From positions 1-24,695 of IMG/VR virus record IMGVR_UViG_3300007539_000203: a stretch of DNA of 24,695 bases. One strand, given 5' to 3'. The notes beneath the pieces were generated by a model, which worked only from the letters and a program-made list of their open reading frames with translations, did no database searches and was not told the origin of the DNA. Below are positions 949 to 22,634 of this stretch, one piece after another. The position numbers and the translations under genes were made by a program. Positions within the stretch are counted from its first letter, which is position 1. Every line of letters begins with the position of its first letter. This DNA is from a virus.

Positions 949-1057
949 ACACTGTAAGAACAAACAATACGTCTCTCAAGCTTTAGCAGAGCTTGGGAGG
1001 CTATACTGTTACTGTTGTCAAAATGAAATTAAATTAGAGGAATATAAAGATGATTAA
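920..1057 (+). CDS. Small zinc-ribbon peptide, 45 aa
   Basis: The ATG at 920 has one of the best ribosome binding sites in the region (AAGGAGG, seven bases upstream), placed inside the DUF3310 gene. The 45-aa product begins MPTGKEITCKHCKNKQ and has two Cys-x2-Cys knuckles, C9/C12 and C30/C33 (CYCC), separated by 17 residues, followed by an acidic tail. This spacing suggests one bound zinc. It overlaps the SSB start by eight bases, so the two are likely co-translated. Function unknown; a nucleic-acid or protein adaptor is plausible. Confidence 0.65.
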   Translation: MPTGKEITCKHCKNKQYVSQALAELGRLYCYCCQNEIKLEEYKDD

Positions 1058-1544
1058 AGAAGCACGTACTGTCATTATCCGTGATGTTGAACTACACTAC
1101 CCTAACCTGAACCCAGAAAGTCCTAAGTCACCTTTTGGTACTATGCAATGGGATGTGCAGATCAGAACACGAGATAAAGCTGCTGCAAAAGAAATGCAAG
1201 AGAAATACTACATCACCATGAAGAAAGAGGAAGATGAACAAGGTGATTACTGGAAGGCAAACCTTAAGCGTAAAGTTGTTAAACGTGATGGCTCAAAGAA
1301 TACACCGCCAGAAGTAGTTGATGGTAATAAACAACCAATTAGTAGTATCAATATTGGTAACGGATCTGTAGGTAATATCATGCTATTCCAGTATCCATAT
1401 GATACAGCTGGACGTAAAGGTGTAGCCTCAATGCTATCCAAAGTACAAGTAGTGGATCTTAAATTATATCAACCGAATAGCGGAACTGACTTCGATGTTG
1501 TAGAAGGTTCTGCACCAACAGAAGGTGCTGCGGTAGACTTTTAA
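1050..1544 (+). CDS. Single-stranded DNA-binding protein (T7 gp2.5-type role)
   Basis: A 164-aa protein with a beta-rich body consistent with an OB fold and an acidic, low-complexity C-terminus that ends in phenylalanine (EGSAPTEGAAVDF). An acidic tail ending in Phe is the hallmark of gp2.5-like SSBs, where it contacts DNA polymerase and the helicase-primase. The N-terminus reads MIKEARTVIIRDVELHYPNL, and size, gene order (before polymerase) and tail all agree. It may belong to the phage DUF2815-type SSBs. GAGG lies about nine bases before the ATG. Role: coats ssDNA at the fork and in recombination. The SSB call is good; the exact family is less certain. Confidence 0.75.
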   Translation: MIKEARTVIIRDVELHYPNLNPESPKSPFGTMQWDVQIRTRDKAAAKEMQEKYYITMKKEEDEQGDYWKANLKRKVVKRDGSKNTPPEVVDGNKQPISSINIGNGSVGNIMLFQYPYDTAGRKGVASMLSKVQVVDLKLYQPNSGTDFDVVEGSAPTEGAAVDF

Positions 1545-2678: not shown

Positions 2679-2954
2679 ATGCCTTATATTAAAGAAGAAG
2701 ACCGTACACGCTTTATGTGGGTTGATGATGCACTTAAAAATAGCCCACCTAGAACAGCAGGAGAATTACAATATGTAATTGCTCTTGCTATACATGAGTT
2801 CTTGATGGAGAACCAGTTAAACTATCAATACTGTAATGATGTTATGGGTGCGCTGACAGGTGCTAACATGGAATTCTACAGACGCTTTGTAGCCCCTTAT
2901 GAGGACACAAAGATAAGGGAAAATGGAGATGTATACTATGAGGTATATGAATAG
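2679..2954 (+). CDS. Small conserved phage-type protein (DUF6899-like), 91 aa
   Basis: The sequence MPYIKEEDRTRF, then RTAGELQYVIALAIHEFL, NYQYCNDVMGALTGANMEFY and RRFVAPYEDTKIRENGDVY closely matches what I remember of a conserved family of about 90 aa found in phages and prophages (DUF6899). The function of that family is not known to me. It is all-alpha with a conserved Arg-Arg-x-Val-Ala-Pro-Tyr-Glu box near the end. AAAGGA precedes the ATG by seven bases. The family name is from memory and should be treated as tentative; the CDS itself is secure. Confidence 0.7.
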   Translation: MPYIKEEDRTRFMWVDDALKNSPPRTAGELQYVIALAIHEFLMENQLNYQYCNDVMGALTGANMEFYRRFVAPYEDTKIRENGDVYYEVYE

Positions 2955-3081
2955 CATACGGTCATTCATAGCAACGCCATTTAAAGTAATTATGTTTAGT
3001 TGTGCATGGATATCTTGTCATATAGATGGTAAACAAATTGTAATAGCTATGGTAGACTATGATGACAATAGTAAAATGTAA
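2938..3081 (+). CDS. Possible small membrane protein, 47 aa
   Basis: This frame fills the only sizeable gap in the + block. The ATG at 2938 overlaps the previous gene, with GGAG about ten bases upstream, and the stop is at 3079-3081 inside the next gene. The product begins MRYMNSIRSFIATPFKVIMF, continues SCAWISCH and then has a second short hydrophobic run (IVIAMVDY). It could be membrane-associated. Moderate ribosome binding site and short length make this tentative. Confidence 0.4.
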   Translation: MRYMNSIRSFIATPFKVIMFSCAWISCHIDGKQIVIAMVDYDDNSKM

Positions 3082-6078: not shown

Positions 6079-6753
6079 ATGTCACAAGATCATCAACGAT
6101 ATGAAGATGTGATCATTAAAGAAGTGACTAAAGTAGATGCTGGCGGTTGGGTCGGCATCCTTACTGAGGAACACGGTGAGATTAGATGTAAGTCTAATAT
6201 CAGAACAAAGCTTAAGTTAAAGAAGGGTTGGGAAGGCGACCTTACTGTATGGGTAAATCCTAAAGGCGGTACTGTGTGTGTAGCCTTTGACCAGAAAGCT
6301 TGGCAAGCTACAGGGGCAGATGCAAAACCGCATGGTCAATGGGAACTACTAGACAACTTAGAAGGCATTAATCCTTATGAGAAAGAAGGGTTTGTCTATA
6401 TGATTACCGAAAAGGCTACTGGAAAGAAGTATATTGGTAAGAAATCATATTGGAACTACAGTAAAGGTAAACGAGTAAGACAGTCTAACTGGAAAACATA
6501 TAGTTCTTCTGGTGTAGATACTGCTCAGAAGGTCTCGGATAACCCTGAGGAATTTGACTATCTTATCTTAGCTGAAGCACCCGATAAGTCTGGTTTAAAC
6601 TATCTTGAAATAGTTTGGCAAATTAAATTAGCGGCACTTACTACCGTAGATGAAAACGGTGAAAAGGTTTACTATAATAAGACACTTGGTAGTGAGAAAT
6701 GGATGTTAACTAAAGCGTTTATTGAGGAATATAATGCGAAATCCAATGTATAA
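6079..6753 (+). CDS. GIY-YIG endonuclease (SegE-like) with N-terminal beta-rich domain
   Basis: Residues about 100-205 of this 224-aa protein form a GIY-YIG nuclease: GFVYMI (Y107), KKYIGKK (Y118-I-G), KGKRVRQSNWKTYSSSG (the Arg-bearing helix), LNYLEIVW (E177, metal ligand) and YYNKTLG (N200). This matches the phage SegE-like GIY-YIG group. Residues 1-95 are beta-rich with Lys patches and may bind DNA; I do not recognise that domain. In T7 the equivalent neighbourhood holds endonuclease I (gp3), so this nuclease may serve host-DNA breakdown or junction resolution. A homing role is possible, but the gene is well integrated (ribosome site AGAGGA, tight spacing), which argues against recent invasion. 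Confidence 0.82.
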   Translation: MSQDHQRYEDVIIKEVTKVDAGGWVGILTEEHGEIRCKSNIRTKLKLKKGWEGDLTVWVNPKGGTVCVAFDQKAWQATGADAKPHGQWELLDNLEGINPYEKEGFVYMITEKATGKKYIGKKSYWNYSKGKRVRQSNWKTYSSSGVDTAQKVSDNPEEFDYLILAEAPDKSGLNYLEIVWQIKLAALTTVDENGEKVYYNKTLGSEKWMLTKAFIEEYNAKSNV

Positions 6754-8862: not shown

Positions 8863-9300
8863 ATGGACTCAATAAAGCAAGCTCGTTATGACAGTATGTA
8901 TATGGATATTGCCGAACGAGTAAGTGAGATGTCATATGATATAGAAACTAAAGTTGGAGCTATTATTGTCAAAGATGGAAACATTATTTCGATGGGCTGG
9001 AACGGAACTCCTTCTGGCTTTGATAACGATTGTAAGCATCCTAGTACTGGGGCTACTCTATCTACTGTTATTCATGCTGAAGCTAATGCTATCTGCAAGC
9101 TGGCTCGTACTGGAGGCAACGGATCTGATGCCACACTGTACACTACGCTCTCGCCTTGTATGGAATGTACTAAACTTATCCTGCAATCTGGGATCAGTGA
9201 AGTTGTCATTGTTAAAGCAGATGAGCGATATATGGAAGGATATAAAATCCTCAAGGACAAGGAGATGATTAGACTATGCAAGTCCACTTCCAAGAAATAG
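8863..9300 (+). CDS. dCMP deaminase-type zinc deaminase
   Basis: The 145-aa protein is a cytidine/deoxycytidylate deaminase family member. KVGAIIVKDG and SMGWNGTPSGF form the nucleotide site, VIHAEANAI carries zinc ligand H71 and catalytic E73, and LSPCMECTKLI carries zinc ligands C99 and C102. Overall layout and length match dCMP deaminases, which convert dCMP to dUMP as substrate for thymidylate synthesis. No thymidylate synthase is in the window. AGGAGA lies about seven bases before the ATG. A related ComEB or general deaminase specificity cannot be excluded. Confidence 0.9.
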   Translation: MDSIKQARYDSMYMDIAERVSEMSYDIETKVGAIIVKDGNIISMGWNGTPSGFDNDCKHPSTGATLSTVIHAEANAICKLARTGGNGSDATLYTTLSPCMECTKLILQSGISEVVIVKADERYMEGYKILKDKEMIRLCKSTSKK

Positions 9301-11876: not shown

Positions 11877-11929
11877 AAAAAACCCCACAAGGTTTCCATA
11901 TAGGATTCCCTGTGGGGTATTTTTTTTTT
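11877..11929. terminator. Bidirectional intrinsic terminator between convergent gene blocks
   Basis: ACCCCACA at 11882-11889 pairs with TGTGGGGT at 11911-11918. A ten-T run follows on the + strand (11920-11929), and A6 at 11877-11882 gives T6 on the - strand. The inner region GGTTTCCATATAGGATTCC can pair further. It ends both the + replication block and the - virion block. Confidence 0.93.
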
Positions 11930-14900
11930 ATGAGAATTGATTGATAAACTCATTCATCATTTCTTCAGCAACTGCTTTGTTATTCCGTACTTTCTTTTCA
12001 AACTTCTCTAAGTCTTGACGTATTTGCAAGGCTTCAATTGAGTCTAAAAACATTCTAAGAAATACTTTTGGTGAAACAATATGATGTTGAGGTGGAAATC
12101 TAAGATTAAAGCTAGTATCATATTGCGCTATAGTAGCAACTTTATCATACGCATTTTTCTTTTTATCATCCATTTCTTTTTGAGCAGAACCTTCTGCTGC
12201 AGTACCAAACCTTTCATCACCAATAATAGTAAAACTATTTTCAATGGCTGTTCTAGGTTTAGTAATAAACTCACCGATCATACGGTACTCACCTTGCATT
12301 CCAATGTCAAAGCCTGTTCCGTTTTTAGTTTTACGCTCAACTTCTTTTTTAACTGATTTAATAAGATCATTAAACGCTTCAACTTCTTTACGAACCATAT
12401 TATACTTCTTATTAACAATTTTAAATTGCTTATTAGCTGTATCTCTAAGATCAGCAAAAGTAGCTGCATCTCCCATGAATGCATCATAAACTTGCATCAT
12501 TAGCTGTCCATTTCTGCGCTTACCTACTTCAGCTACTGTAGCCTGGGCAATTGTAGCGTCAATATTTTGAGTAGCATTAACAGCCATTTGATTTCGTAGT
12601 TTACTTCCTGTTCCTGGATTGCTTCTTGAGTTATCTCTTAGTCTACGAGCATCTGCTTTTGCTTGGGCTGAAGGAATATTACGTGCAAGTCCTACAGTCA
12701 TTGTACTTTGACGTAATGGTTCGCCTGCTCTTTGAACTCCAGGTTGTTTCCTAAAGTCTTCTGCAAGCTGAATAATTTCTGCACCAGTTTCTACTCGCTC
12801 CCATCCACCTGATTGAATCAGATAGCCGTTAGCTCCTTCTGTTTGGTTAATTTGATTAGCAAAATTAAAAGCATATCCTACACGAGACATAATTTTACCA
12901 TGCTCAAACGCACCACCAAGCCTATGTTTAAGACCAAAAGCTATTTGATCTTGTAAGAATTTAACTGCCTCATCTCTTTCAAAATTAGCAAACATAGTTC
13001 TATTAGTAACATAAAACTCTTCAGCAGTATCTTCGTGCAAGTTAGGGTCTTTACCATAGATACTAGTCATAATAGGAATCTTTAACAATTCTTTGCGCTT
13101 GCCTGCAGCCTTAATGTTTGCAACTAGCTCTTGCTCCTTCTGACCGTATCCTGCCATAACATTTTGTTCGATAGAGTCAAACACTTCATCTCGAATATCT
13201 TGCTCAAGGTCATCTGCGCTAGAGTAAATAACACCACCTCGACTAAGAATATTAATCAAACCCATTTGCATAGCTTGAATAACAGCACCATTAGAGTTAC
13301 CGTCAACTTCTGCTTTAACACGAGTAATAAACTCTTGATTAGGGCTTGTAGGATCTATGCGGTTATATCTTCCTAGCTCATATAAAGCATCTAATGCAAA
13401 ATAAAAACCATCTTTACCCATTTTATCTAGATGATTAAGGGTTGTAGTACTTAATGATTCTTCAAGAGAAGGGACAAGACCTTGCTGAATTGCAGTTTGA
13501 AGTGCAGAAGCAGGATCATCTGGTAAATCCATTTGTTTAGCAACACCACCTACACGATCCATGTAGTTCATTACATCTGCAGCCATGTTGTCAAACATTG
13601 CTCTTTGCGAATTAAATAAAGCAATTTGATCTGCAGGAAGTTTCTTGTCTGCCTTTTCAACAAGTGATCTTGCAAGAACTCCAAAGAAACCTTTTTCTAA
13701 AGTAGAGCCAGAGCCTTTTCTAAACTTAACAGGTTGCGCTCCATCAACAAGGAAACGAGCTACTTTGTCTGCTTGATAATTAAGCTCAGTATTACTAATC
13801 ATCATACGAGATGAATTATTAATAGCTGTATAACCATAGTAGAAAGAAGTACCAATACGATTAGCACCATCCGCTAATGTTTCTGCACGCAAATTATAAT
13901 GAATCTGTTGAATTCTTCTTGCTTGATTAAATGCCTCATCTCTAAGTTTCTTTTCTACTTCTTGACGAGTAGGCCGATATCCCTGTGGAAAAAACTTTCC
14001 AAGAGATAAAACACCGTTATCAAAATCAAAAAGAAAACGCTCATACAATTCATTAGTTTTATCTTCAAGATATTTAGGGTCTTGCTTAGTGTATTTAGCA
14101 AACAATCCTGTGTTATTCATAGTGGCACTAGCCATAACCCCTGCAAAAAGAGTTACTTTATGCGGAGAAATAGTGTGTGCTACTTTAGATAACGCAGATA
14201 TACCTTCTTTTACTTTTTTAGTAAGGCGATTAGGTACTACTTGTCTAGTAATTTCATTTTGAGTATAACCAGATTCACTAATTAAAATACCTTCTGCAGT
14301 TGGAACAAGAGAAACAGGACGCTCATGCCCTTTTAGGCCAAGCTCTTTAAGCAAAGCTCGCCTTAACCGAGGCACTTGATGCGCACCTGCATCGCTAACT
14401 ACATAAGTGTACTTAGGCTTTTTATTACCTGACGGATCAGGTACAGCAATAGTATTAATCCAATTAAACATTGGACTATCAGCAAACCCTTGAAGGATCA
14501 CTTGACCAAGAACATCTTTTTCATCTGAAGTTAATCGAGACTTATATCCTGGACCTTTAATTTCTCCTGTAAAAGAACTTGCATCAATGTCGCCTGAATG
14601 AAATAACATCTGTTCAATACGGTCAGCTACTGCACGACCAAAAACAGTCCGATCCATAGCATTATCATGTAACCTTTCAGATGCTACTTTATCAATTTCA
14701 GTAGACTGTAAGTTAAGACGATTACCTAGCTCCATTAATACAGCAAGGTAGGCAGTTGCTCCAAATGCTGATTTAATTTCTGAGTTAGGATCAGCATCAT
14801 TTTCAGCCATACCTAGTTTATCTGTTGACTTAACAATATACTGAAAGGTATCTGCATTTTGTCTAATGATATCTTGCGCTCGTGCTACATTACCAATTTC

Positions 14901-15701
14901 ATCTGGCTTCATAAAAGAATTAGGTATTTGAACCGCAAAAATATTTGATTTACCACCATCAAATCTAAATGCTTTACCTGCATTCTCTAAGTCTTTTTCA
15001 ATTTTGATAATATCAGCACCATCAGCAATACTAAGATCACGATAATGCGATTGCATAAGCTTATTATCAATATAGTTACCAAAGTTTTTTGCGCCTTCTT
15101 CATCTAGGAAAGCACCTGTTTTTTGAAAGTAGCCTTGCTGAAGCTCTTGTTGCCCTGCCTCAAGTGCTTCTTCTTCGGTCATTGTACCTAAGTACTGACC
15201 TCTTTTGTCTAGCTTTGCTAGTTGTTCTTGACGAAGTCTATTAGCAGTTTCTTGAGTAAGGCTAAAAGTTGTAGGGTCAGTCGGATCAAGAGCTAATGCC
15301 GCCTCTTCAGGCGACATGCTATCAAATCCCTCTACTGTCCTTTGCCTTGGACGGTCTGCTACTGTACCAAGAACTCTTTCTTCTCCAGGAACAGCAAGAC
15401 CTTTTATTGCAGGTTGATCTGATTCAGGTAAGTTAACTTGTTGACCTGCAAGCTCAGCTAGCTCAGCTTCTGGTTGTACTGCAAATTCATCCCCTGTCGG
15501 AGCCATTGGTACTCTGCGTTGCAGTTCTTCTGCTGGAAGAGAAATAGAGCTTCTTTCTGATAACTCATCACCAAGATTTATTGCTTTTTGTTTTCCTTCT
15601 TCAGAAAGCCCTGCTTGTTTTCTTTTTTCTGCTTGTATTTTTGCAAAAGTTTCTTGCCGCAAAGTAGAGGCTATATTTGTGGCTGATAGTTTCCCTGCCA
15701 T
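11928..15701 (-). CDS. Divergent single-subunit RNA polymerase in the virion operon (probable virion RNA polymerase)
   Basis: A 1257-aa protein whose position suggests an ejected internal virion protein. From residue ~600 it carries single-subunit RNAP motifs in order. YYGYTAINNSSRMMISN with R632 corresponds to the T7 DxxGR region, followed by NYQADKVARFL like NPQGNDxxxxLL. Motif A is KAEVDGNSNGAV (D800). Motif B is KELLKIPIMTSIYG, where K870, K874, M878 and Y882 keep the exact four-residue steps of T7 R627, K631, M635 and Y639. NATQNIDA leads to motif C, MQVYDAFMGD (D1073). R-to-A, A-to-B and B-to-C distances are 168, 74 and 199 residues. Residues 1-600 are unrecognised and may handle packaging, ejection or promoter binding. 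Its start follows the previous stop by one base, with GGGAG six bases upstream. N4 vRNAP is the closest known concept. Packaging is inference. Confidence 0.85.
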   Translation of the reverse strand: MAGKLSATNIASTLRQETFAKIQAEKRKQAGLSEEGKQKAINLGDELSERSSISLPAEELQRRVPMAPTGDEFAVQPEAELAELAGQQVNLPESDQPAIKGLAVPGEERVLGTVADRPRQRTVEGFDSMSPEEAALALDPTDPTTFSLTQETANRLRQEQLAKLDKRGQYLGTMTEEEALEAGQQELQQGYFQKTGAFLDEEGAKNFGNYIDNKLMQSHYRDLSIADGADIIKIEKDLENAGKAFRFDGGKSNIFAVQIPNSFMKPDEIGNVARAQDIIRQNADTFQYIVKSTDKLGMAENDADPNSEIKSAFGATAYLAVLMELGNRLNLQSTEIDKVASERLHDNAMDRTVFGRAVADRIEQMLFHSGDIDASSFTGEIKGPGYKSRLTSDEKDVLGQVILQGFADSPMFNWINTIAVPDPSGNKKPKYTYVVSDAGAHQVPRLRRALLKELGLKGHERPVSLVPTAEGILISESGYTQNEITRQVVPNRLTKKVKEGISALSKVAHTISPHKVTLFAGVMASATMNNTGLFAKYTKQDPKYLEDKTNELYERFLFDFDNGVLSLGKFFPQGYRPTRQEVEKKLRDEAFNQARRIQQIHYNLRAETLADGANRIGTSFYYGYTAINNSSRMMISNTELNYQADKVARFLVDGAQPVKFRKGSGSTLEKGFFGVLARSLVEKADKKLPADQIALFNSQRAMFDNMAADVMNYMDRVGGVAKQMDLPDDPASALQTAIQQGLVPSLEESLSTTTLNHLDKMGKDGFYFALDALYELGRYNRIDPTSPNQEFITRVKAEVDGNSNGAVIQAMQMGLINILSRGGVIYSSADDLEQDIRDEVFDSIEQNVMAGYGQKEQELVANIKAAGKRKELLKIPIMTSIYGKDPNLHEDTAEEFYVTNRTMFANFERDEAVKFLQDQIAFGLKHRLGGAFEHGKIMSRVGYAFNFANQINQTEGANGYLIQSGGWERVETGAEIIQLAEDFRKQPGVQRAGEPLRQSTMTVGLARNIPSAQAKADARRLRDNSRSNPGTGSKLRNQMAVNATQNIDATIAQATVAEVGKRRNGQLMMQVYDAFMGDAATFADLRDTANKQFKIVNKKYNMVRKEVEAFNDLIKSVKKEVERKTKNGTGFDIGMQGEYRMIGEFITKPRTAIENSFTIIGDERFGTAAEGSAQKEMDDKKKNAYDKVATIAQYDTSFNLRFPPQHHIVSPKVFLRMFLDSIEALQIRQDLEKFEKKVRNNKAVAEEMMNEFINQFS

Positions 15702-19826: not shown

Positions 19827-22634
19827 TTATAGCTTAAAGTGATCAGATAATTTTTGAATTTCATCAAGGGAAGTATTTGCTAACCAAAGAGAAAAAGCAG
19901 TTTCATCTTTTCCTTCAGCACGATTAGTCCAATCTTCTCTTGGTACGATCTTTTTAATACCAATACTTTCAGCTAAAGCATCTGCAGCAACTTTATCTAC
20001 AGGTACTCTGTTAAAGACTTCTTCAACAATCTTCCAATTTTCTTGATAAGCTACGTCATAGCCATCTTCATATGGATTCATATTAGTGCTTTGACTAATC
20101 TTTTTATCTAGTTTAGCCATTGATTTAGTACTAATACCATTAAGGAAAGCACTATTAATCCCCGTTAATGGAATTACCATTTCAGATTGTACGTATGCTG
20201 CAATATCTGTAGGCACAGGTGTACCTTCTCGTTTTGCTTTTGCAACATCTGCCATAAACTTATCTACTACTTCTGCAAATTGAATTCTGGTACGCTCTGC
20301 TTCGTTAATACCGACACCATGTTTGCGTACATAATCATTAAACTCGGCATTAAGTTGAGTAGCTAGCTTAACAGGTAATGGATCTATTTGAAATTCATCA
20401 GTGCTAAAATTCTTTCTAGATCTTTCTAGCATATCTGAAAAATAAGAACGATTAGCAGCAGCTCCCATAGTCTTTTCATCCCAGGGTTGAATATATTTAC
20501 CTAGTACTGAAACAGGAACATAACCATTAGGATAACCTAATTGTTCGGCTTCATTTAATTTAACATATTCAATGCCATCATCATCTTTATAAGTATTAAC
20601 TCTACCTTTACCAATAAAGTTTACACTTCCAGAAACTTCTTTAATAACTGTCCCTTTAGTTGACTTAGGTACAAGATCATTTGGATCTAAAGTCTCCATA
20701 AACTTCTGAGCAGATGCTGCAGTGTAGTTATCGAGATTACTCTTAGCCAAATCAAATCTACGTTCTTCTAGTTTAGCTTCTGCTGCTTTTTTATCTTTAG
20801 CTGCTTGGTCTACTCTAGTTACATATTGTTTCATTGAATAGTTAAGAGAGCTACCATGATCGTAACCCAATGCACGAGAACCAACATAGTTAATAACCAT
20901 ACGTGCTAATTCAGGTCCACTAAACATATCTTTAAATGCTTCAGCAAACCAACCTTTAGCAGTATTTAGTTGTTCATCAAACTTAGATTTCTCTTCAGAA
21001 TTATCATCAAGACTAGCAAGATAATTATTGATAGAAGCATCGCCTTCAGGAGTTATCTCATTAACAGGACCAAGCTGTTTAATAACACCTTCTGCTGCTT
21101 TCTTTTGTGACTCTAAATCTACCGTATCTATCTCATATTCTGGAATAGCCTCTGGTTTATCAAACTTACCTGTTTCAGTATTATAGGTTTGTGCCTTTGC
21201 AGTTGCTTCTGCTGCTTCTGTTACTTTAGCACTTACTTCTGAAGCATGTTGTTGTTGTATTTGCTGTGCTTCTTTTAAGCTTTGAGTTGCTTCTTGATGT
21301 GCAGCAACTAGCTCTGGAGATACAGGAATACCCTTACTTTGGTTTTCATTAATCCTGTTTGCTAGCGTATCAACCTTTGCTTGACGGTCAGTAACTCTAT
21401 TTTCATTGAGATTTGCTATGACTTTATCTTGGTCAGGTAATAAGTCCAATACATTAGGGTTAGGGACTCCAGGAGCATCTACAGGTACTGGTAAGCCAAT
21501 AAACTCACCAGGATATTTAAGCGCACGTTCAGCTTGTTCGTCCTTAATAATAGTAGACTCTGTTCCAAATAGTTTATTCCCTACTGGTTCTCCAGGAGCG
21601 TCTTCAGGTACAGGTACTCCGAATGACTCTAGTGGATACATAAGGAATCTTTTCATTTGTGGAGAAAGAAAACCTTCTTCATCAGGCTTTGGAACTGATG
21701 CTGCTTGCATTTTAGGAACAGATGCTTCTGCCGCTGAAATAGGGTTTAATGCAGATAGTATTTTACCAGCATAAGATTGACCTCTTTCACCAAGTGTTTC
21801 TGTACCTTCTTTTGCTTTACGAACATTACCAGCCCCTGAATGATACGCTGTCAAGACCTCTTCTTGAGTAAAGTCTGGATTTTCTCTAGCAATTGCTGTA
21901 AGATAATCTTTAGCAAATTGACGAGACTTATCAGGATCTCTAATGTCTTCGATAGCAAGTGGAGTAACACCCATTCCAGGTTTTGCGGCAGTAGAAGGCA
22001 TAATTTGATAAGCGCCCATAGCACCAGCTTCAGATGTTGCATCAACGTCACCTCCTGATTCAACCATTTTAAGACTATCCAATAAATCATCTGTCAACCA
22101 TGAAGGAACGTTTGTACCTTCTTGGGCATAGATGGGTCCACCTTTTGAGTTATACAAAGAACTAAAGTCAAACGTATCTCTGTCTTGTTTAGTTGGTTTG
22201 CTACTTTCTAACTTACCAAGATATCTACGGCCACCACCTGTTCCAACACGCTTAGTGAATTGACCAATGCTACCATCGGGCATTCTTCGATACTCAATTC
22301 CTGGAGGTGCTTGTGGCATAGTTATACTGTCTAAAGCATCTTGGAAAAACCCAGTAATACCGCCTTCACCTTTATATTCAGGAATAGTACCACCTTGTGC
22401 CTGTTGTATGGCTCGTCCTTCATTGTTTATTTCTTCAAGTAATGGTTCATACTTTCGAGTAGCTTCTGCATTGATAACAAATTCTCCTGGAGTTAACCAA
22501 GCAGGTACTGTGTCTGGACCTTTAGGTTCTCCTGGATGATCGTATTCAGGTGTCTGCATAGGAGGCACATCATAGAATTCTACGGACATTTCATTACCGT
22601 AGCGATCTTTCCGCATAAAACTTTTTAAATGCAT
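19827..22634 (-). CDS. Virion protein with lytic transglycosylase domain, 935 aa
   Basis: Residues ~178-297 form an SLT-type lytic transglycosylase: SLKMVESGGD (catalytic E192), EAGAMGAYQIMPSTA and VLTAYHSGAGNVRKA. It would cut peptidoglycan locally during DNA entry, the role of T7 gp16's N-terminal domain. Residues 43-73 have the phage-typical segment VPAWLTPGEFVINAEATRKY followed by EPLLEEINNEG. Residues ~326-407 are two imperfect copies of a Pro-rich unit, and ~405-490 look coiled-coil. The C-terminal ~350 residues are unrecognised. The ribosome site AGGAGA lies in the last codons of the preceding gene, one base separating stop from start. A terminator follows the stop codon. Confidence 0.86.
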   Translation of the reverse strand: MHLKSFMRKDRYGNEMSVEFYDVPPMQTPEYDHPGEPKGPDTVPAWLTPGEFVINAEATRKYEPLLEEINNEGRAIQQAQGGTIPEYKGEGGITGFFQDALDSITMPQAPPGIEYRRMPDGSIGQFTKRVGTGGGRRYLGKLESSKPTKQDRDTFDFSSLYNSKGGPIYAQEGTNVPSWLTDDLLDSLKMVESGGDVDATSEAGAMGAYQIMPSTAAKPGMGVTPLAIEDIRDPDKSRQFAKDYLTAIARENPDFTQEEVLTAYHSGAGNVRKAKEGTETLGERGQSYAGKILSALNPISAAEASVPKMQAASVPKPDEEGFLSPQMKRFLMYPLESFGVPVPEDAPGEPVGNKLFGTESTIIKDEQAERALKYPGEFIGLPVPVDAPGVPNPNVLDLLPDQDKVIANLNENRVTDRQAKVDTLANRINENQSKGIPVSPELVAAHQEATQSLKEAQQIQQQHASEVSAKVTEAAEATAKAQTYNTETGKFDKPEAIPEYEIDTVDLESQKKAAEGVIKQLGPVNEITPEGDASINNYLASLDDNSEEKSKFDEQLNTAKGWFAEAFKDMFSGPELARMVINYVGSRALGYDHGSSLNYSMKQYVTRVDQAAKDKKAAEAKLEERRFDLAKSNLDNYTAASAQKFMETLDPNDLVPKSTKGTVIKEVSGSVNFIGKGRVNTYKDDDGIEYVKLNEAEQLGYPNGYVPVSVLGKYIQPWDEKTMGAAANRSYFSDMLERSRKNFSTDEFQIDPLPVKLATQLNAEFNDYVRKHGVGINEAERTRIQFAEVVDKFMADVAKAKREGTPVPTDIAAYVQSEMVIPLTGINSAFLNGISTKSMAKLDKKISQSTNMNPYEDGYDVAYQENWKIVEEVFNRVPVDKVAADALAESIGIKKIVPREDWTNRAEGKDETAFSLWLANTSLDEIQKLSDHFKL
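21414..21659 (-). repeat. Two-copy tandem repeat within the transglycosylase protein
   Basis: Residues about 326-366 and 367-407 of the 935-aa protein align as two ~41-residue copies. Core 1 is YPLESFGVPVPEDAPGEP and core 2 is YPGEFIGLPVPVDAPGVP, with Q-x-x-R-x-L-x before each. DNA identity is lower than protein similarity, so the duplication is old. It probably forms a Pro-rich linker or binding site. Confidence 0.7.

Follow-up and report, generated by a model that had tools for sequence, protein, structure and literature searches.

The window analyzed here, a marine virus contig of 24,695 bases taken at its full length, raises the question of what is encoded by the gene that closes its - strand block. 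This gene, P0001, is the final one of a block that also contains genes for a 935-residue and a 1361-residue protein, and it faces a + strand block encoding a DNA polymerase, an exonuclease, a primase-helicase and a T7-type single-subunit RNA polymerase (RNAP). Virion-packaged single-subunit RNAPs (vRNAPs) are treated as a signature of N4-like phages, and as giant proteins of about 3,500 residues. A preliminary description of the locus had read P0001 as a hidden, compact second single-subunit RNAP within the operon of virion genes. Support for this reading is strong and comes from profiles of the family, the mapping of residues, a confident structural model and a fold search.

Taken by itself, the window protein had no hit to a polymerase family in either Pfam or PHROGs, and used as a single query it yielded nothing useful with phmmer against the PDB or with tblastn against phages at E 0.01; hmmsearch of the family profile against PDB sequences returned no polymerase either. 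Profile-profile comparison was therefore needed, and the case for a polymerase thus rests on the family. The latter comprised 40 BLAST-linked sequences, to which further members were added by a profile-guided scan. Using the neighboring T7-type RNAP as bait, we recovered 37 related contigs, and a convergent family member adjoined the T7-type RNAP gene in all 26 of the 26 contigs that extended at least 1.2 kb past the RNAP gene; three members (L033, L035, and L039) were included by position first, then confirmed by profile (100, 96.2, and 96.2%, respectively). Identity to the window protein ranged from 92% down to 14%, and complete members were approximately 1,167-1,370 residues long. Comparison sets were drawn from public records and consisted of 15 Schitoviridae-type vRNAPs and six T7-type RNAPs. 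With hhalign, the whole family matched the 15 vRNAPs at 99.3% (E 1.1e-20), and the BLAST-linked members only did so at the same 99.3% (E 1.6e-20). Matches to two T7-type sets reached 97.1 and 96.4% with the whole family and 83-95% with the BLAST-linked members only, so that the family versions together covered 83-97%, with E-values from 1e-5 to 1e-11; the family was thus related by profile to both N4 and T7 enzymes. The 15 sequences closest to the window, compared alone, scored 97.6% against the vRNAPs and at most 0.5% against the T7 sets. Control profiles, namely reversed and column-shuffled vRNAPs and four unrelated protein families of the same phages, gave 0-0.2% with the whole family and at most 0.5% throughout.

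Searches with single sequences of the family were in line with these profiles. Among 24 single members, four matched PHROG 2206, "virion RNA polymerase" (best 6.7e-8), six matched PHROG 414, RNA polymerase (best 4.7e-8), and four matched Pfam RNA_pol (best 0.001). In a sub-threshold tblastn of the window protein, the best among the matches listed were Schitoviridae vRNAP genes, and the best match to an N4 protein anywhere in the window was P0001. When the family alignment was compared with the single N4 sequence or with the single T7-type RNAP sequence of the window, the motifs were aligned correctly and the scores were weak. On these sequence comparisons, the core of P0001 is homologous to the N4 mini-vRNAP, which we take to be residues 998-2103 of gp50 (PDB 2PO4, 3C3L, and 9PNQ), and has N4 vRNAP rather than T7 RNAP as its nearer relative. 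The protein had been placed outside the N4 type, which stands for its size and genome context but not for its core, of N4-vRNAP type by profile. Likewise, its N-terminal 600 residues had been regarded as unexplained. Since homology to N4 begins at about residue 295, the region that precedes the TxxGR motif is the counterpart of the N-terminal segment of mini-vRNAP, with which residues ~295-600 were aligned; the first ~290 residues were indeed unmatched.

At the level of single residues, the motifs listed in the preliminary description were all present in the 1257-residue reading frame at the positions given there, and the profile alignment placed each of them on the matching T7 residue. HMM-HMM mapping to T7 RNAP paired R632 with R425, D800 with D537, K870 with R627, K874 with K631, M878 with M635, Y882 with Y639, D1048 with D787, and D1073 with D812, in agreement with the motifs assigned earlier by eye; the likeness of NATQNIDA to a T7 segment was also borne out, with Q1045 on H784 beside the D1048 pair. 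Mapping to N4 gp50, whose residue numbers are the positions printed in the alignment plus an offset of 850, paired R632 with R1421, D800 with D1556, K870 with R1663, K874 with K1667, Y882 with Y1675, and D1073 with D1948. The order of motifs is that of the superfamily, i.e., the Arg of DxxGR/TxxGR, the Asp of motif A, the R/K-x3-K-x7-Y-G of motif B and the Asp of motif C, and an NxQxxKxxR block after the TxxGR motif is common to the family and N4 vRNAP. Replacement of DxxG by NNSS, previously taken as a mark of strong divergence, holds for the clade of the window, but other members retain xxGR (for example, SSVGR and TAVGR).

Prediction of the structure led to the same family of enzymes. The AlphaFold2 model of residues 190-1257 of the window protein, built without templates, had a mean pLDDT of 78 and a pTM of 0.79, and in a fold search of the PDB its best 50 matches were all single-subunit RNAPs, including yeast mitochondrial RNAP (3.8e-17), N4 mini-vRNAP (from 2.4e-14), and T7 RNAP (5.8e-14), in agreement with the fold that the preliminary description had expected. 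N4 gp50 (9PNT/9PNQ) had the top query-normalized TM-score (0.48) among the matches listed. TM-scores were moderate (0.4-0.5) and the global rmsd was high, as would be anticipated when a homologue is remote and flexible. Among predicted viral structures, the best matches were phage RNAPs and N4-type vRNAPs. According to this model, P0001 has the right-hand palm/fingers fold of single-subunit RNAPs. Coordinates are collected in Table 1.

Table 1. Features of the P0001 locus in the window, followed by copies of a leader element in related contigs (positions are those of the window or of the contig named).
Feature	Position	Strand	Basis or remark
Predicted compact N4-type single-subunit RNA polymerase gene (P0001)	11928..15701	-	1257 aa; profiles, motif conservation, model
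Poorly conserved N-terminal tail, residues 1-190	15132..15701	-	Lower identity, higher dN; omitted from model
Polymerase core, residues ~295-1117	12351..14819	-	Aligned to N4 vRNAP ~1130-1991, within mini-vRNAP; 707 columns
TxxGR/DxxGR-like motif with R632, then LNYQADKVAR (N4: NPQSAKLVR)	13755..13820	-	
Motif A EVDGNSNG, catalytic D800 (= T7 D537)	13287..13310	-	
Motif B KELLKIPIMTSIYG, K870/K874/M878/Y882 (= T7 R627/K631/M635/Y639)	13053..13094	-	
NATQNIDA, Q1045 and D1048 (= T7 H784 and D787)	12555..12578	-	
Motif C QVYDAFMGD, catalytic D1073 (= T7 D812)	12468..12494	-	
T7-type single-subunit RNA polymerase (705 aa), a separate gene convergent with P0001	9496..11613	+	Pfam RNA_pol 1.2e-55; PHROG 414 9e-104
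1361-aa structural/ejection-type protein, GTG start, upstream in the operon of P0001	15703..19788	-	PHROG 6958 virion structural protein 1.4e-20; CRP-7 gp34 homologue
935-aa SLT transglycosylase-domain protein, probable ejection/wall-degrading virion protein	19827..22634	-	Pfam SLT 1.5e-15
Leader element, L109 (G002)	122-205, 625-692, 2909-2975	+	
Leader element, L114	14195, 14699, 16640		
Leader element, L117	14687-14760	-	
Leader element, L119, L172, L144, L160, L142			

From a functional point of view, P0001 is quite likely an active DNA-dependent RNAP, nearest to the polymerase domain of N4 vRNAP, which is made late, packaged, and ejected to transcribe early genes before the T7-type RNAP takes over. 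It would be expressed from the late virion operon and enter the head together with the ejection proteins, whose genes lie directly upstream; once ejected with the DNA, it would transcribe the early genes, and the separate T7-type RNAP of the + strand block would then handle middle and late transcription. Catalysis is an inference with good support; packaging and ejection, as well as the division of labor between the two polymerases, are suggested by gene position together with homology. Like P0001, the gene of N4 gp50 ends the late strand and faces the + strand block, an arrangement kept by the P0001 family in 26 of 26 contigs; the aligned residues of the catalytic core and the predicted match to the N4 RNAP domain are further likenesses. 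With T7-type RNAPs, i.e., gp1 of Autographiviridae and mitochondrial RNAP, P0001 shares the superfamily fold, as predicted, and the catalytic residues. It differs from them in that its profile similarity to them is weaker than to N4 vRNAP, that it lies in a late virion operon, and that its genome holds a separate T7-type RNAP besides.

Some phages encode two RNAPs, one of which is absent from the virion. P0001 could accordingly be an active second RNAP that is made late and kept in the cell unpackaged, for example for late or structural genes, leaving middle genes to the T7-type enzyme; its polymerase identity is well supported, and its location is drawn from gene context. We consider this unlikely. 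P0001 closes an operon for proteins of the structural and ejection type and faces the block of replication and RNAP genes, as in N4, and its nearest characterized relatives are virion-packaged vRNAPs. In addition, a late-only polymerase could not start early transcription, and the T7-type enzyme would be present by then.

The conservation of the family bears on whether the packaged polymerase proposed above has remained an enzyme. A vRNAP descendant turned into a structural ejection protein devoid of polymerase activity would be in line with identities as low as 14%, with the Arg that sometimes replaces the Lys of motif B (position K874 is K or R, CRP-7 gp33 and several family members having R), and with the Glu found at the D1048 position in one member (L029). 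In the alignment of 24 sequences (A1), D800 and D1073 were invariant, and R632, Y882, Q1045, and D1048 were conserved at 90% or above; fixed or nearly fixed columns of the family include R632, K646, R649, D800, G801, G805, Y882, G883, D1048, and D1073. Over sequences that are mostly 14-40% identical, then, neither metal-binding Asp varies, and R632, Y882, and G883 hardly do, which argues against an inactive descendant because these are the very residues that a protein without activity should lose. Between P0001 and its 92%-identical homologue, dN was 0.048 and dS 0.613 (dN/dS ~0.08), which places the gene under strong purifying selection. Residues 3-200 were less constrained (amino acid identity 0.83, dN 0.105) than the rest of the protein (0.92-0.94, dN 0.03-0.04), and dN/dS was low throughout the core. 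Loss of activity consequently appears improbable. The reading as a common internal virion protein of the T7 gp16 kind, with motif matches due to chance, corresponds to the usual annotation for such a gene and agrees with the lack of a polymerase family hit for the window protein by itself. It can practically be dismissed, being contradicted by profiles, fold search, and motif conservation, as well as by the dissimilarity of Zobellviridae internal virion proteins to the P0001 family.

Those proteins had been of interest because a "putative vRNAP" was proposed in phage StenR_269 and in Zobellviridae from size, helical content and absence of cysteine (PMC10747016). They resemble P0001 as large late-operon proteins of podoviruses. 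Considered as relatives, StenR_269 WQZ00968.1 (L122, 20236-27048) and the Zobellviridae internal virion proteins (L121, L123, and L124) were rejected, with profile scores of 0.1-0.2%, and no profile similarity to the P0001 family, N4 vRNAP, or T7 RNAP was found in them.

A cultured relative can be recognized in CRP-7, a podovirus of a Roseobacter RCA strain in which a T7-type RNAP (ORF30) is the sole RNAP reported (PMC6918029). Its gp33 (MK613349), of 1235 residues and annotated as hypothetical, is convergent with the T7-type gp30, in the same layout as in the window, where the T7-type RNAP is 34.7% identical to gp30. CRP-7 gp33 joined the P0001 family by profile (98.3%, E 1.4e-14) and is about 14% identical to the window protein; a profile of its own subfamily is too shallow for a direct match to N4 or T7 profiles. 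A weaker model of a CRP-7-type member, L101 (pLDDT 62, pTM 0.56), whose input alignment also contained window-type sequences, gave 29 significant PDB matches, all of them single-subunit RNAPs. Two of the related contigs (G002 and G003) shared 53-54% identity with CRP-7 in the major capsid protein and 38-39% in the scaffold protein. CRP-7 gp33 is therefore probably a diverged copy of the P0001-type polymerase, and a probable function can thus be proposed for this hypothetical protein.

The genomes that carry P0001 differ from N4 in several respects. Unlike the vRNAPs of reference N4-like genomes, which span 2,842-3,820 residues (PMC10654107), family members are about one third of that size, and P0001 has no counterpart of the flanking regions of gp50, which are ~1,000 residues long on the N-terminal side and ~1,400 on the C-terminal side. 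P0001-type phages also carry an undivided T7-type RNAP, and their other genes had no N4 match by tblastn. Indeed, when N4 proteins were compared by tblastn with G002, G003, CRP-7, and the window, none matched better than E 0.1, and the match at that weak level was the vRNAP core; N4 hallmark genes (major capsid protein, portal, and full-length vRNAP) were not recovered, which suggests that these phages fall outside Schitoviridae. We lean slightly toward a broader view, in which marine phages of the CRP-7 group, outside Schitoviridae, carry a stand-alone compact N4-type RNAP in the virion and, with the T7-type RNAP, would have the whole genome transcribed without host RNAP. If so, ejectable polymerases would make up a class with a wider distribution than has been assumed, in which the giant N4 enzyme is one form and much smaller ones occur; the strategy of bringing one's own polymerase would be more widespread too, and feasible with a third of the protein. 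Compact forms would have escaped a survey of N4-like viruses because vRNAP-related proteins below 2,500 residues were discarded (PMC10654107). Our search of the open-access literature, most subscription journals being outside it, found no description of compact N4-type vRNAPs. Such a form would make the minimal requirements for packaging a polymerase and threading it through a phage tail testable, and would provide in vitro studies with a naturally small enzyme.

As for promoters, a search of CRP-7 and related contigs for N4-type hairpins revealed no recurrent one with a 3-nt loop; the window itself stops short of the early genome end. Near that end, related phages contain about three copies of a covarying leader element of ~66 nt (Table 1), usually located 13-42 nt upstream of small early genes, among which are Enc34-type single-stranded DNA-binding paralogues. 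The element fits a hairpin plus pseudoknot, with 95.6% of pair cells paired against 36-47% in slid controls and two-sided changes in 13 of 18 pairs, and no Rfam family matched it. It was considered as a vRNAP promoter and set aside, since its conserved G-U pairs suggest RNA rather than a DNA hairpin.

Other genes of the window deserve mention. The N-terminus of the 1361-residue protein resembles a staphylococcal-nuclease motif (DADTF...IQGYNAPET), without confirmation by Pfam. In the replication block, the + strand genes at 6079-6753, 8863-9300, and 2002-2436 resemble a SegE-like GIY-YIG endonuclease, a dCMP-type deaminase, and a nucleoside deoxyribosyltransferase, respectively. Finally, positions 1050-1544 (+) encode an Enc34-type single-stranded DNA-binding protein (PF10991, 3.1e-6), of which several paralogues occur in relatives.
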